Assembly (NCBI RefSeq): GCF_024227435.1
Contig: NZ_CP100445.1
Span: 310,001-374,000, forward strand
Length of the DNA stretch: 64,000 nt
Direction: 5' to 3'
From: Natrinema caseinilyticum
GTDB lineage: Archaea > Halobacteriota > Halobacteria > Halobacteriales > Natrialbaceae
Below the pieces are notes generated by a model that searched no databases, was not told the DNA's origin, and saw only the letters and a list, made by a program, of their open reading frames with translations. The first letter of the stretch is position 1. Every line of letters begins with the position of its first letter. A program made the translations under genes and the position numbers. Shown here one piece after another: positions 2,332 to 11,447 of this stretch.

Positions 2332-3096
2332 ATGACGAATTACGACTGCGTCACCGTCAACGACATCGATCTCTACTACCAGGATGTCGGCACCGGAAAA
2401 CCGGTCGTGTTCCTCCACGGTTTCGGGGGAAATCACCTGTCCTGGTTCCGTCAGATGCCGGCGTTCGCCGATCGCTATCGTTGTCTCGTCCCGGATCAGC
2501 GGATGTTTGGCCGGTCCGTCGACGCGCAAGACGGGCCCGGAGTCGCCTCGCACGTAGCCGATCTCACCGCGTTCCTCGATCACCTCGAGATCGACACCGT
2601 TGCGGTGGTCGGCCACTCGATGGGCGGTTGGCCCGCTGCGTCGTTTGCCACTCAGCACCCCGAGCGCACCGCCGCGCTGGTACTCTCCGGGACCCCTGGT
2701 GGTCTCCTCCCACCCGATGAGCATCGCGATCTGATCGAGAAAGCGGCGGACACACTCCCGACGGTCGATCCGCTCACCTCGGAATTGTCGTTTCTCTCGG
2801 ACGCTATCGACGCTCTGAATACCGATCGCCCGGCAGAATTCGCTGCCGTACGGCCACCGCTCGACGACCTACCGATCGATCCGAACAGTCTCGTCACGGC
2901 GGGGATTCCAACGTTCCTCATCGCGGGGGAGGCCGATCACTTCATGCCTCGATCGGCAGTCGAAGCGGTGACAGAGCGTCTCGAGGACGTTGACTCCGCC
3001 ATCGTGAACGGTGCTGGCCACTCGTCGAACTTCGAGCGTCCAACTGCGTTCAATCGACTGGTTGGTGACTTTCTCGAGGACCATCTCACAGCTTGA
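2332..3096 (+). CDS. alpha/beta-fold hydrolase
   Basis: A 254-residue alpha/beta hydrolase. It has the oxyanion-region HGFGGNHLSW, the nucleophile elbow GHSMGG with Ser96, a probable acid in GEADHFMP and the C-terminal catalytic His in GAGHSSNFERP. Length matches the esterase/epoxide hydrolase/haloperoxidase-like branch, whose substrates cannot be told apart from sequence. A TATA-like ACTATATGG about 35 bp upstream suggests a very short leader. It probably acts on a small ester or related substrate in the cytoplasm. Confidence 0.88.
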   Translation: MTNYDCVTVNDIDLYYQDVGTGKPVVFLHGFGGNHLSWFRQMPAFADRYRCLVPDQRMFGRSVDAQDGPGVASHVADLTAFLDHLEIDTVAVVGHSMGGWPAASFATQHPERTAALVLSGTPGGLLPPDEHRDLIEKAADTLPTVDPLTSELSFLSDAIDALNTDRPAEFAAVRPPLDDLPIDPNSLVTAGIPTFLIAGEADHFMPRSAVEAVTERLEDVDSAIVNGAGHSSNFERPTAFNRLVGDFLEDHLTA

Positions 3097-3256
3097 TCCG
3101 CCGGTGATACCGTGTCGAATGTCGAATTTCGATCGGACGACCCGGCTCCGTCGAATCGTCGATCGATGACGTCTCTCGGAATCGTGCCGAAGACGGAGCG
3201 CGATTGTGGCGCTCGGGGTTCTGTCAGCACGGCCTCGAACTGAGTCGTCTGGCCGT

Positions 3257-3442
3257 TCAGACCCGGTCCCGAGACGACTCGTCGCCTTCTACCGCTCGAA
3301 ATGAGGCCTCGGTACACGAGCAGGCGTTGTAGCCGCTCACCGATCGACAGGACCCGTCCGCCGAGAGCCACACGACGGCTGCCTTCCCACAGCCGTCACA
3401 GATGCCGATCGTCCGTTGCCGCTGTGCGTCTGATTCGGCCAT
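3257..3442 (-). CDS. small zinc-binding protein (CxxC...CxC)
   Basis: A 61-residue protein with CDGCG at the start of the core and ACSCTEASF later, four cysteines spaced as for one structural zinc site. Such one-domain zinc proteins are abundant and mostly uncharacterised in haloarchaea. The acidic C-terminus and codon use support coding. No operon partner. Confidence 0.6.
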   Translation of the reverse strand: MAESDAQRQRTIGICDGCGKAAVVWLSADGSCRSVSGYNACSCTEASFRAVEGDESSRDRV

Positions 3443-3800
3443 ATCGGATACTGTTTACGAGCAAACCGATAACTGTTTCTAAACGGCGCGAAACCGTCGC
3501 GACGGTGAATTCATCGTTCGAAGTATCGGAGACCGATTCGGCAGAGCGGATTTCTGATCTCGAGTAGGCGCTCTGTCGACCGTCTCGGGGTCACGCCCCG
3601 TGGCATCCGTCTCGACAACCTGTGAACCGAAATACGGGGGAGCGCGGACGGATTCGTCCGTATCAGTCCCGTCCGCACCGGCCGCGGTTCGTTCGTCCGA
3701 TAGACGGTCTCGAGGTGAACGCGTGGGACCGAGTCGGAATGCCGGCCTTCGTGAAAGCGAGGTGGTGTGGCGGTCCGCGGCGAAGGGATCGCGCGACGGA
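3443..3800. other. no gene recognised
   Basis: About 360 bp between two minus-strand genes. Open frames here are basic, arginine-rich shadows. The upstream 80 bp of AT-richer sequence should carry the promoter of the zinc protein. Confidence 0.5.
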
Positions 3801-4862
3801 TTATCTGGGCTCTGTCTCCGTTTCGGGCCGTTGAATTTCCGGAAGCAGGAACCGAACGATGTTTCCGCGGGGCGAATTCTCCTCGAAGACGAGTTCGCCC
3901 CCGAGCGAGTCGACACACCACTGCATGACCCAGAGACCGACGCCGGAGCCGTGATGCGTGGTACTCGCCGCGAAATGCTCCTTTAGAACGTCGGTCTCGA
4001 TGGTCGGGATCGTCGGGCCGGTATCGAGAACGCTGACCGCTCCTTGATTCGTGTTTGGCTCAGTATCGACTCGAACCACGACTGACGGGGCGTCGTCGTC
4101 GTTGTGAGTGATGGCGTTGTCGATGGCGTGAATAATCGCGTGACGCAGACCGTCGTCGGCATTTACCCAGACCTCCGCCCGAGTAGAGACGGTGAGATCC
4201 GCCGCTGGATACTCGGCCTCCAATTCCGTCACGATTTCCGTGACCAGTTTTCCGATGTCCGTCGGTGTCCGTTTCGCTGCGTCCGGTTTCGCGATTTCTT
4301 GGACCTGACGGATCGAATCGCTCAGCGTCCCGATCTCGGCGGCTATTTCGAGGATCATATCCACCTCCTCTTCGATCGTCTGTTCTTCGACGGCTCGTTT
4401 GAGTCGGTCGGCGTATCCGATGAGAACGTTCGTTTCGTTCCGAAGGTTGTGCCGAACGACCCGATTGAGAAGTCGGAGACGTCGCTCGCGAGCTTTGTAC
4501 TCGGTGATGTCTCGAATCTCGGCGACGACACACGTGGTGTCATCGAGCGTCGTCTTGTTGAGGCGAACACGAACCCAGATCAGTTCGCCGTTCGCTCGCT
4601 TGATCTGCCACTCGAACGTCTGCGGTTCGCCGGCGGCAGCCGATCGAATCCGCTCGATCGCTTCGTCCTGTGAAAATCTCGTCGAGGGGGCTGTATACTC
4701 CTCTATTTCCATCTCGAGGAGTTCGCTCCGAGAATAGCCATACAACCGTTCTACCTGATCGTTCGTGTCGAGCACCGCACCTGTCTCCGGGTCACGTAAG
4801 ACGATTCCCGTGTCGATGTCGTCGAATACCCCCGGCAAATCCGCGTTCCGATCCCCTTCCAT
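3801..4862 (-). CDS. PAS-domain sensor histidine kinase
   Basis: A cytoplasmic sensor kinase of about 353 residues. An N-terminal PAS domain (about residues 10-125, from FDDIDTGIVLRDPETGAVLD to VVAEIRDITEYKARERRL) is followed by a phosphoacceptor helix with LLNRVVRHNLRNE, where the His in VRHNLRN is the expected site. The ATPase domain has the N box (AIDNAITHND), G1 (VLDTGPTI) and G2 (HHGSGVGLWVM). There are no transmembrane segments and no receiver domain, as is common in haloarchaea. TATAAAAA at 4885-4892 lies 26 bp upstream of the ATG at 4862, so the gene is probably leaderless from there. No cognate regulator is adjacent. Confidence 0.9.
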   Translation of the reverse strand: MEGDRNADLPGVFDDIDTGIVLRDPETGAVLDTNDQVERLYGYSRSELLEMEIEEYTAPSTRFSQDEAIERIRSAAAGEPQTFEWQIKRANGELIWVRVRLNKTTLDDTTCVVAEIRDITEYKARERRLRLLNRVVRHNLRNETNVLIGYADRLKRAVEEQTIEEEVDMILEIAAEIGTLSDSIRQVQEIAKPDAAKRTPTDIGKLVTEIVTELEAEYPAADLTVSTRAEVWVNADDGLRHAIIHAIDNAITHNDDDAPSVVVRVDTEPNTNQGAVSVLDTGPTIPTIETDVLKEHFAASTTHHGSGVGLWVMQWCVDSLGGELVFEENSPRGNIVRFLLPEIQRPETETEPR

Positions 4863-4884
4863 GACAATAACCAAACAGAATAAC

Positions 4885-4892
4885 TATAAAAA
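4885..4892 (-). promoter_or_regulatory. TATA box of the histidine kinase gene
   Basis: TTTTTATA on the minus strand, centred 26 bp from the ATG at 4862. This is the standard distance for a leaderless haloarchaeal transcript and decides the start. Confidence 0.55.
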
Positions 4893-4950
4893 CCTACGAA
4901 CTGCGGAAACGATTACCACCGTCGGGGTAACCGTTAGTCGTCCGTCGAAT

Positions 4951-5060
4951 ATAGTAGTCGTTGAAAGTCAGTGCACACCCCGCTCGCGAAGTCGCGGCCA
5001 GCGAGACTTTGCTGGCCACTCCACTGCGAGCGGTGAGTAAATCGTTTCAACGACTACTAT
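4951..5060. mobile_element. 110-bp snap-back MITE, copy 1
   Basis: Perfect 16-bp terminal inverted repeats (ATAGTAGTCGTTGAAA at 4951-4966, its complement at 5045-5060) enclose two further nested inverted repeats: CCGCTCGC/GCGAGCGG (4980-4987/5026-5033) and GGCCAGC/GCTGGCC (4996-5002/5011-5017). The whole unit can fold into a long hairpin. A diverged copy in inverse orientation lies at 41944-42054. There is no transposase; it would be mobilised in trans. No clear target duplication is seen. Confidence 0.8.
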
Positions 5061-5516
5061 CGGTCCCCGTCCGTTCGGACACCGATGCCGCGTGACATAC
5101 GGTGACGAACTGCCCCGGAGGTCACCGATAGTGTCACCGAGTAGGCGCTCTCCTCTCTCGCGGTAGCTCTCGTCCGGTCGCCTGACGGACTTTCGATAGC
5201 GGTCCGTTTGACGAGATCGAGTCACCAGTGCCGTAACAACTAATAGTAATTGCCGAAAATAACCACCCGCCTCTGCTCCCCCATCCAGAGGCACGATCTT
5301 CCCCCGTCCCTTTCCGCGTTTCCGATAGGTTGCACACGGAAACTGTTCTCACGGTGAATTCACCGGTGGTGCGCTCTCAGACCTGGACTGGCGATACGAA
5401 TCGATATGGCGCGATTCACCCGATTCGATGGACCGCACCGGGCGACAGTACTACCACCGATCGGTTCTTCGGCCGCAGGTGACGCACCCGCGGGCGACGA
5501 CTGTGCGGGTCTCAGT
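5061..5516. other. no gene recognised
   Basis: About 450 bp between the MITE and the 3' end of the PhoD gene. Frames in both strands are short and arginine-rich. No RNA gene or repeat was noticed. Confidence 0.5.
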
Positions 5517-9089: not shown

Positions 9090-9097
9090 ATCGGTTC
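9090..9097. repeat. target site duplication, left (ATCGGTTC)
   Basis: Eight bases identical to 11332-11339 on the other side of the 2.2-kb element. An 8-bp duplication is what the ISH1 group of IS5 makes. Confidence 0.75.
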
Positions 9098-9149
9098 GGC
9101 TCTGTTGAAATCCTCAGAGGGTTACACGTTCGCCCGATAGTTTGATCGG

Positions 9150-9971
9150 ATGCAGGCCCTCCCGAAATCGCGGTTACTCCAGTTCGTTGAGAAGGCGTAT
9201 CACTTGGCTCGTCGAGCTGTTGCTCGCTACTCTTCAAAGTTCTCGAAACAGCGGTACACACTTCACCAGCACATCGTCTTGCTCTGTCTCAAGGTACGAA
9301 AGAACACGACGTACCGGATGCTGATCGATGAACTCATCGAGATGCCCCGGGTTCGGAATGCCATCGGCCTTGAGGAACTCCCTTCACCCTCAACGCTTTG
9401 TAAAGCGTTCAGCCGACTCGATATGGCGGTTTGGCGCGTTCTACTCAACCTCTCGGTCACACTCCTCCCGACCAACGGTGTCGTTGGTATCGACGCCTCC
9501 GGCTTTGACCGCAGTCACGCCTCGAAACACTACACGAAGCGAACGGAGTTGACGATTCAACAGTTGAAAGTCACGCTCCTCGTAGACACGAGAGCGAATG
9601 TTATCCTCGATTTGCACGTAACGACGACACGAAAACACGATTCACAGATCGCACCGACGCTCGTCAAGCGGAATACCGCTGAAGTTGCGATTCTTCTTGG
9701 CGACAAGGGATACGACGACGAGAAGATTCGCACGGTAGCCCGTGAAAACGGTGTACGTCCGCTCATCAAGCACCGCGAGTTTTCGTCGCTTCACAAGGCG
9801 TGGAATGCTCGACTAGATGCCGACCTCTACGGTCTGCGGAGTCAGAACGAGACAGTGAACTCTCGACTCAAACGCAGGTATGGAGCATTCGTCCGCTCAC
9901 GACACTGGTGGAAGCAGTTCCGTGAACTCGTTGTCGGCTGTCTCACTCATAACATCGAGAAGGCACTCTAA
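9150..9971 (+). CDS. IS5-family (ISH1-like) DDE transposase
   Basis: A 273-residue transposase with the DDE triad visible: D in GVVGIDASGFDRSH, D in ILLGDKGYDDEKI, and E in RSQNETVNSRLKRRYG with the following R. The N-terminal helices (SSKFSKQRYTLHQHIVLLCL) are typical of the haloarchaeal IS5 branch. Length is full and no frameshift is seen, so it may be active. It sits 52 bp from the left terminal repeat. No right terminal repeat occurs close to its stop; the matching end is 1.36 kb away beyond two passenger genes. Confidence 0.9.
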   Translation: MQALPKSRLLQFVEKAYHLARRAVARYSSKFSKQRYTLHQHIVLLCLKVRKNTTYRMLIDELIEMPRVRNAIGLEELPSPSTLCKAFSRLDMAVWRVLLNLSVTLLPTNGVVGIDASGFDRSHASKHYTKRTELTIQQLKVTLLVDTRANVILDLHVTTTRKHDSQIAPTLVKRNTAEVAILLGDKGYDDEKIRTVARENGVRPLIKHREFSSLHKAWNARLDADLYGLRSQNETVNSRLKRRYGAFVRSRHWWKQFRELVVGCLTHNIEKAL

Positions 9972-9999
9972 ATAGAGAGATCATAGATCGAAGTCTCCC

Positions 10000-10340
10000 T
10001 TACAGCCAGCCCTCTGGCAGTTCGTCCTGATGCCGGTCGATCAATTCGAGGAGGGGGCGTAACTCATCGAATGCGGGGCCTCGTGTGACGACGTTCTTCT
10101 CGCGGTTCCATTCGATGAGGCCAAGTGACTCAAGTTTCGGGAGGTGGGTGTGCGTCATCGCCATGAGCATCTCCTCTAACTCCTCGTCATCCGTGGTCAG
10201 GTCGTCGGGGATCGCTGCCTCGTCTTCGGGATTGTGATCGAGGAGCGTCATCAGGAGCCGCCTCCGGTAGGGATTTTCCAACAGGCCAAACGCTTCCTCA
10301 GACGTGAGTGCTCCGACCGCTCTCTCTCTCTCTCTCTCAT
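10000..10340 (-). CDS. winged-helix regulator (DUF7344-like), currently out of frame with its start
   Basis: The frame encodes a haloarchaeal regulator domain (SEEAFGLLENPYRRRLLMTL, then THTHLPKLESLGLIEWNR), about 106 residues to a C-terminal EGWL. The best start, ATG 10338-10340, is preceded by GGAG and a TATTTAAA promoter, but is followed by (GA)9 and is one frame off. With (GA)8 it would read MRERERAVGALTSEEAF in frame. An in-frame ATG further up (10482, overlapping the upstream gene's stop as TAATG) would add a basic, unfamily-like segment that runs through the TATA box. Passenger gene of the transposon. Confidence 0.65.
10321..10338. repeat. (TC)9/(GA)9 dinucleotide tract at the regulator start
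   Basis: Nine perfect TC units directly abut the complement of the ATG at 10338-10340. The unit length of two means each slip shifts the frame. Loss of one unit would restore the regulator frame. Confidence 0.9.
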
Positions 10341-10481
10341 GATTCTTACTGGGGGCTCCTTTCGGGAAGTCCGTCCCTGTAGTACAACCGCTTTTTAAAT
10401 ACTCCGCCAGTTGTCGACGCTGACGGTGGACCGTGCGTTGGGAATCCCGATATCGGGGGCACGCGTGGAGGAGACTGGGCA

Positions 10482-11135
10482 TTAGTCGGGTTTCGCTGCG
10501 AGCGCTTGGTCGACGACGGTGTCGAGCGCACGGCGCATTCGTTGAGAGGCGGCGTTCGGACTGATGCCGATGAGATCGGCGATTTCGCCGAGTTCGATGT
10601 CGCGTGGGATGTGCCAATACCCCTTCGCGTGAGCAGTCGCCAGAATGTCGTACTGTTCGCTACTGAGTTCGCCTTCTTCGAGCGGCTCACTAGGGATCGT
10701 GGGATTGTACAGTGCCTGCAACTGGAACTGGATGTCATTGTCGTGGCAGCGTTGGCGGAAGTCACCGAGCATCGACCGGTTTGCGAACTGGAGGCGAAAG
10801 TTCCAGCGATTCGCACTCCCTTCGGCGATCAGGACTTCGGCACGGCTCTCGATCATCGGCTTGATGAGCGCATCGATTTCGGTGCTCCAGCGAATCTCGA
10901 AGAGATGCCGTCCGTCGGCCTCCGTGAGCAGGTTGACCTCCTCTGCCAGTGGATCGCCGCGAATCGTGGCCTCGACGTCATCGGGGTTTGCCCCGTCAAC
11001 CCAAAACAGGGGGATGATCCCGTCTCGAAGGGGGATGACACGGACGAGTTCGATCTCGATGTCGGAATACTGTTCGAGGAGTTTTCCGAGCGCGAACTGG
11101 TCAGCCGGTATCTCGATATCGGTAATAACGGTCAT
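10482..11135 (-). CDS. HTH-10 (Bat-type) transcription regulator, transposon passenger
   Basis: A 217-residue stand-alone HTH-10 regulator of normal length. The N-terminal part (MTVITDIEIPADQFALGKLL, DIEIELVRVIPLRDGIIPLFWV) is the usual ligand/sensory half. The C-terminal HTH-10 is LSSEQYDILATAHAKGYWHIP followed by IELGEIADLIGISPNAASQRMRRAL. Start chosen at 11135 because residues before it are unlike the family. It lies leftward inside the IS5-type element and its stop overlaps an ATG in frame with the next passenger regulator (TAATG), so the two could be co-transcribed. Targets are unknown. Confidence 0.85.
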   Translation of the reverse strand: MTVITDIEIPADQFALGKLLEQYSDIEIELVRVIPLRDGIIPLFWVDGANPDDVEATIRGDPLAEEVNLLTEADGRHLFEIRWSTEIDALIKPMIESRAEVLIAEGSANRWNFRLQFANRSMLGDFRQRCHDNDIQFQLQALYNPTIPSEPLEEGELSSEQYDILATAHAKGYWHIPRDIELGEIADLIGISPNAASQRMRRALDTVVDQALAAKPD

Positions 11136-11447
11136 ATCCGTACGTACGCTCCACACGGCATTATCGCTAGCCCTCGGAGTCAGTGAGGATCTACTGCCCG
11201 GTAGCTCTGAGGGCAACGTATTTAGGCGTCGGTGAACCGATCCAGGCGACCTCCCGAGGTAAACGTCGCCTCCTTACCATACGGCTGTTTCAGCGGGGAG
11301 ATTATCGAAATAATGGGATTTCAACAGTGCCATCGGTTCGGTTCGCACACCGGATCGCCGGTTCGTCGCCGAGTAACGTTTCACAAACATAACGGATATA
11401 GTACATTACCGATGGGATCAAATATGTGCGTAAACAATAGAGAGCGT
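11136..11447. other. transposon right end and promoter region
   Basis: Contains the promoter of the passenger HTH-10 gene, the right terminal repeat (11315-11331), the right target duplication and, beyond it, the promoter region of the SPW-repeat gene. No gene is seen. Confidence 0.6.
11332..11339. repeat. target site duplication, right (ATCGGTTC)
   Basis: Identical to 9090-9097 and directly adjacent to the right terminal inverted repeat. Confidence 0.75.

Follow-up and report, generated by a model that had tools for sequence, protein, structure and literature searches.

Insertion sequences are usually regarded as carrying a transposase gene and nothing else. The window analyzed here (64,000 nucleotides of the Natrinema caseinilyticum contig NZ_CP100445.1, positions 310,001 to 374,000) contains a locus where an IS5-type transposase gene and two regulator genes share one pair of ends, raising the question of whether the whole is a single transposon and how the regulators came to be inside it. 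We delimit the transposon as 9098-11331 (2,234 bp). Its terminal inverted repeats, GGCTCTGTTGAAATCC at 9098-9113 (forward strand) and GGATTTCAACAGTGCC at 11316-11331 (reverse strand, where it reads GGCACTGTTGAAATCC), are complementary at 15 of 16 positions, and the left copy of the 8-bp target duplication ATCGGTTC (9090-9097) is matched exactly by the right copy (11332-11339); both features had been claimed in a preliminary description of this DNA and both are present. The same left end is present in almost all relatives. The right terminal repeat belongs to a conserved block of about 66 bp (11266-11331, reverse strand), which forms the right border of a cargo slot, and the spacer between the transposase stop codon and the cargo (9972-9999, forward strand) is the region of its left border. 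In the relatives this left border is marked by a conserved block (about 16 bp from the stop codon) with TAYAG as its end; the block has diverged in the window element.

The transposase gene (9150-9971, forward strand) is intact and encodes a 273-aa DDE transposase of the IS5 family (DDE_Tnp_1, 4e-15; NCBIfam NF033579 transpos_IS5_2, 216 bits with a cutoff of 140). Among 50 intact family members, at least 98% retain D115, D185, and E234, likely the catalytic triad. The DDE transposase, the inverted repeats, and the fixed-length target duplication agree with the IS5 family, whereas the 2,234-bp unit with two extra genes departs from the compact transposase-only architecture that the preliminary description took as normal for haloarchaeal IS5/ISH1 elements. 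For this element, a putative ISH1-group member in that description, the nearest named records that we found are ISHla2 of Halorubrum lacusprofundi and ISHxa2 of Halopiger xanaduensis, which have the same ends and transposases 81% and 78% identical to that of the window. The ISHxa2 locus also has the same cargo architecture (2,490 bp, exact duplication), but public annotation of both records names transposases only, and we found no description of their cargo in the open literature. In the plasmid collection, the transposase also matches 111 Acinetobacter plasmid records (counted by organism); the matches that rank below the haloarchaeal ones mostly have less than 60% identity.

Joined at the duplication, the flanks of the element match one continuous stretch in another species of the same genus (G023), with 83% identity over 578 bp. 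The site in that species, gaagcgATCGTCTCggttcgc, holds one copy of the target (ATCGTCTC, differing from the window duplication at two of eight bases) and neither an IS nor the regulators, supplying the empty site that the preliminary description had proposed to seek in relatives. Because the site is uninterrupted, the whole unit is an insertion relative to G023, and the regulators came with the element. One could suppose instead that the regulator pair is resident and has stayed in place, and that a transposase-only IS and an unrelated right end have come to lie on either side of it by chance. This would fit the outcome of the search for other complete copies of the exact 2,234-bp unit, also proposed in the preliminary description, which found none in the same genome, in 199 relatives, or in plasmids; the case for recent mobility of this copy therefore rests on the duplication and the empty site. 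Chance juxtaposition leaves the exact outer duplication unexplained, could hold only if G023 had lost the regulators by a precise deletion, and is at odds with a pattern that holds across the family (see below). We consider it very improbable, and the regulators were not found at this locus in relatives without the ends.

The transporter IS concept describes IS ends enclosing genes unrelated to transposition (PMC3129680, PMC7986276). Here, genes for an HTH_10/BAT and a DUF7344 protein lie inside the ends and both are absent from the empty site; movement of the unit with its passengers is indicated indirectly by the duplication, the empty site, and cargo-bearing relatives at different sites. 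Taken jointly with the whole explanation developed below, we are confident that the unit is a transporter IS of the IS5-family group to which ISHla2 and ISHxa2 also belong.

The first cargo gene (10482-11135, reverse strand) encodes a 217-aa HTH_10/BAT-domain regulator similar to bacterio-opsin activators, and the second (10000-10482, reverse strand) is a 160-aa ORF for a DUF7344 winged-helix regulator; the domain matches bear out the two leftward regulators read earlier from the sequence as HTH-10 and winged-helix proteins. The TAATG overlap of the two genes, also noted earlier, exists in the sequence. However, in native homologues about 150 bp separate the first gene from the start of the second, so the 160-aa reading is probably too long, and translational coupling through the overlap is doubtful. 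The native start probably lies near 10340. The putative native ATG (10338-10340) lies one repeat unit out of frame. It is directly followed by a (CT)n tract (10320-10338) that reads AG on the coding strand and sits where the DUF7344 reading frame begins, so that changes in repeat length could switch the gene on or off. A TATA-box-like TATTTAAAA, read from the sequence, lies upstream of DUF7344 at 10393-10401 (reverse strand).

HTH_10 genes are abundant across the order, occurring in 289 of 293 genomes. The closest native pair (in G201) is 75% identical for HTH_10 and 74% for DUF7344 and has the same gene order and strand, with no transposase or IS ends nearby; similar HTH_10/DUF7344 pairs are found at four further loci (L139, L146, L152, L155). 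Since an IS-free pair occurs in other haloarchaea, the cargo here is a native host operon captured by the element. On a Haloarcula pelagica plasmid (L138, 3755-4651), an HTH_10 homologue is 84% identical to the cargo gene, and a solo right end of the same IS group lies 246 bp upstream of its start.

Two further units of the family reside in the same genome, one with a membrane protein as cargo (L158, contig C1) and one of 2,900 bp (L156, contig C3) with an exact ATCTAGCC duplication and genes for HTH_10, DUF7344, and HalOD1 proteins. The latter, a sister of the window unit, is full length in Halogeometricum limi (96.6% identity) and is found in G194 (97-98%) in pieces, interrupted by an insertion. 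These copies sit at unrelated sites, with no recognizable duplication around either of them. The empty site in a congener and the sister unit, full length in two other genera, uphold the proposal of a single mobile unit carrying a regulator pair. Regulator pairs are recurrent cargo, since they are found in this sister unit and again in L076; single members occur in L046, L050, and L079.

Relatives of the transposase were found in 134 of the 199 relatives and in many named genera. We screened 123 distinct instances, gathered with one transposase and with ends sought within 4-5 kb. A single script, which demanded both ends and a duplication matching at 7 or more of 8 positions, delimited 56 units, and the addition of ISHxa2 brought the set to 57 elements from more than 20 haloarchaeal genera. 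The duplication is exact (8/8) in 54 of the 56 scripted units, or 55 of 57 with ISHxa2. Among the 101 eligible instances in the panel of 123, 54 have an exact 8/8 duplication outside matching ends; when left flanks were shuffled among loci, exact duplications averaged 0.58 with a maximum of 3. Units are 1,160 to 3,695 bp long and have 289 to 2,824 bp of DNA after the transposase gene (median about 796), with the slot at the same position in every unit. The premise that such elements normally carry only a transposase gene is thus wrong for the subgroup in the window: all 57 delimited units hold extra DNA, and neither a unit without an insert nor a compact unit with a duplication is among them. 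In instances that have a right end but no recognized duplication, the right ends are likewise at least 291 bp downstream, except in Halorubellus salinus (L040, approximately 3949-4898), where a degenerate right end without a duplication lies 79 bp after the transposase gene. This only near-cargo-free member that we saw is probably a deletion derivative. The transposase reading frame is broken in 7 of the 57 units.

The slot carries a wide range of genes. By Pfam and NCBIfam, the cargo includes methyltransferases, a threonine synthase-like PLP enzyme, an alpha/beta hydrolase, RibD_C, a maltose acetyltransferase-like protein, a formate/nitrite transporter with a TrkA_C protein, a PAS-GAF histidine kinase, regulators (HTH_10/BAT, DUF7344, HalOD1), and SnoaL-like, DUF1801, thioredoxin, redoxin, and DUF2270 proteins. 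Many further cargo proteins are small membrane proteins or lipoproteins that were assigned to no family. In 42 of 55 units the slot is filled, to a median 78%, by a single complete ORF, which faces the transposase in 29 of those 42; the counts are approximate because ORFs were picked by a simple composition score. A scan of one third of the cargo proteins for defense genes gave two mad2-like matches only, which we attribute to general methyltransferase similarity.

Comparisons between units suggest that this cargo is exchanged rapidly. The clearest case is the pair from Haloferax larsenii (L071) and a Halorussus halophilus plasmid (L176): their transposases are 99.8% identical, the first 939 bp have two differences, the last approximately 60 bp are identical, and the cargo is unrelated. 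In these two units the cargo is flanked by a 17-bp inverted repeat (GGGASTGCTGAATACAG) that is not general in the family. The reverse arrangement is seen in L077 and L172, where the shared cargo is 93-96% identical within backbones that differ by 10-22% (transposase windows 78-90% identical, the right end lower), and also in L212 and L203, which share cargo in more divergent backbones. A third arrangement is that of L194 and L208, which share redoxin cargo with similar identity in the transposase (95.6%) and the insert (94.5%) and have different flanking duplications (7/8 in L208), a case of whole units that moved together with their cargo. In most of the 118 pairs whose transposases are at least 92% identical the cargo differs, and cargo can change before the transposase diverges by 1-3%. 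Similarity in most of these pairs breaks off 13-25 bp past the last transposase codon (positions are from an ungapped comparison, where small indels give zero values). On the other side of the slot, about half of the informative pairs share some 50-70 bp of the right end; the others share the terminal repeat only.

The ends, the duplication, and the empty site show that the transposase moves all DNA between the two 16-bp ends, generating the 8-bp target duplication. A left module (left end, transposase gene, and short post-stop block) and a right-end module of 60-70 bp enclose a slot whose content varies in almost every copy, in the window a captured host operon with the HTH_10/BAT regulator gene first and the DUF7344 winged-helix regulator gene second. 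Replacement of the cargo appears to be fast and to take two routes: the mosaic pairs suggest that elements exchange cargo with one another, and internal right-end fossils suggest that an element can adopt a more distant right end and trap the intervening DNA. The delivered regulators would presumably act in a new host from their own promoters, and could in that way rewire host gene expression as the preliminary description suggested.

How far each route accounts for the cargo is a matter of weighing. If the right end of an element is damaged, the transposase could use that of a neighboring, often decayed element as the partner of the left end and so trap the gene in between, after which the old right end decays or is deleted. 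The ISHxa2 locus (L221, Halopiger xanaduensis pHALXA01, 2949-5438) looks like a record of such steps, with three successive right ends (two of them decayed), one gene behind the first and another behind the second, and a duplication, CACCGTCT, that matches the outermost. Similarly, the Halorubrum laminariae unit L049 (3949-6200) holds the entire Halogranum rubrum unit L051, with a 100% identical transposase; the L051 right end inside it is 6 bp short, a second IS in inverted orientation comes next, and an exact duplication brackets the outer ends of L049. Internal right ends also occur in L166, L177, and L203. Where near-identical transposases go with different cargo, about half of the pairs have right ends of different types. 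However, L071 and L176 kept their right end while their cargo differs, and in many units the cargo stops 5-30 bp inside the left border, so that a fossil would not fit. Fossils are found in no more than about 10 of the 57 units, and several units have no space for one beside the cargo, so adoption of a new right end is not the source of all cargo; we rate its probability as slightly below even.

Cargo might instead be swapped at the slot between elements whose backbones stay unchanged, either through homologous recombination in the transposase and right-end blocks that the elements share or through a site-specific event at the slot borders. The unchanged backbone with different cargo in L071/L176, the same cargo in more divergent backbones in L077/L172 and L212/L203, the sharp borders common in the family, and a weak inverted repeat between the borders (clear in L071/L176 only) all speak for such swapping. 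On the other hand, we found no recombinase and no consistent recombination site, the inverted repeat is not general, and purifying selection on two adjacent functional blocks can also give sharp borders, which alone are no proof of site-specific recombination. Swapping at the slot is thus a tentative reading, somewhat short of an even chance, and the two processes may both operate. A dedicated archaeal cassette-exchange system, in which the post-stop block and the inner right end are recognition sites for precise exchange of single genes, seems unlikely; if it were true, a 1-kb IS would be a one-slot gene vehicle for haloarchaea.

Several candidate signals at the slot were set aside. Inverted repeats at the slot borders score 9.4 in a unit's own pairs and 8.4 in mismatched pairs, a difference driven by few units, and we make no claim from it. 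Direct repeats TGACCGATAC..GTATGCAGCACG around subgroup B cargo, considered as a recombinase site, are present in few units and not general, and can also be explained as right-end remnants. A GTTRRRY core resembling that of integrons, seen at the left border, was taken as coincidence, as conservation runs on past the core. A decayed right end just after the transposase gene shows no excess over other windows as a general rule and applies to particular units only.

Integron cassettes, Tn7-like transposons, and plant Pack-MULEs likewise combine a fixed mobility module with changing genes; by comparison, the module here spans about 1 kb and has a single transposase, and the cargo is usually one complete gene. 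No integrase was found among the cargo or element genes by Pfam, and no attC-like site or general slot-border repeat was seen. In composite transposons, two elements can mobilize the intervening DNA through their outer ends, as in L049, whereas the typical unit of this family has one IS backbone without a second complete copy. Cargo is reported to be present in 96% of Tn7-like transposons (PMC8649781). In the IS6 family a passenger is known in a single member only (PMC7986276), whereas every delimited member of the window group carries one, cargo differs in almost each member, and turnover is fast. One case of a haloarchaeal passenger gene has been described, in H. lacusprofundi (PMC10544981). 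We found no description in the open literature of varying cargo at a fixed slot as in this family; what is new here is a hypervariable form of the already known transporter IS.

All delimited copies of this widespread haloarchaeal IS group bring extra DNA with them, mostly one ordinary gene, making the family a concrete route of gene exchange among haloarchaea. This accounts for many of the neighboring 'IS5 transposase' and 'hypothetical protein' genes in annotation. The family amounts to a natural gene-delivery vehicle, and gene capture by a minimal transposon becomes testable in genetically tractable archaea.
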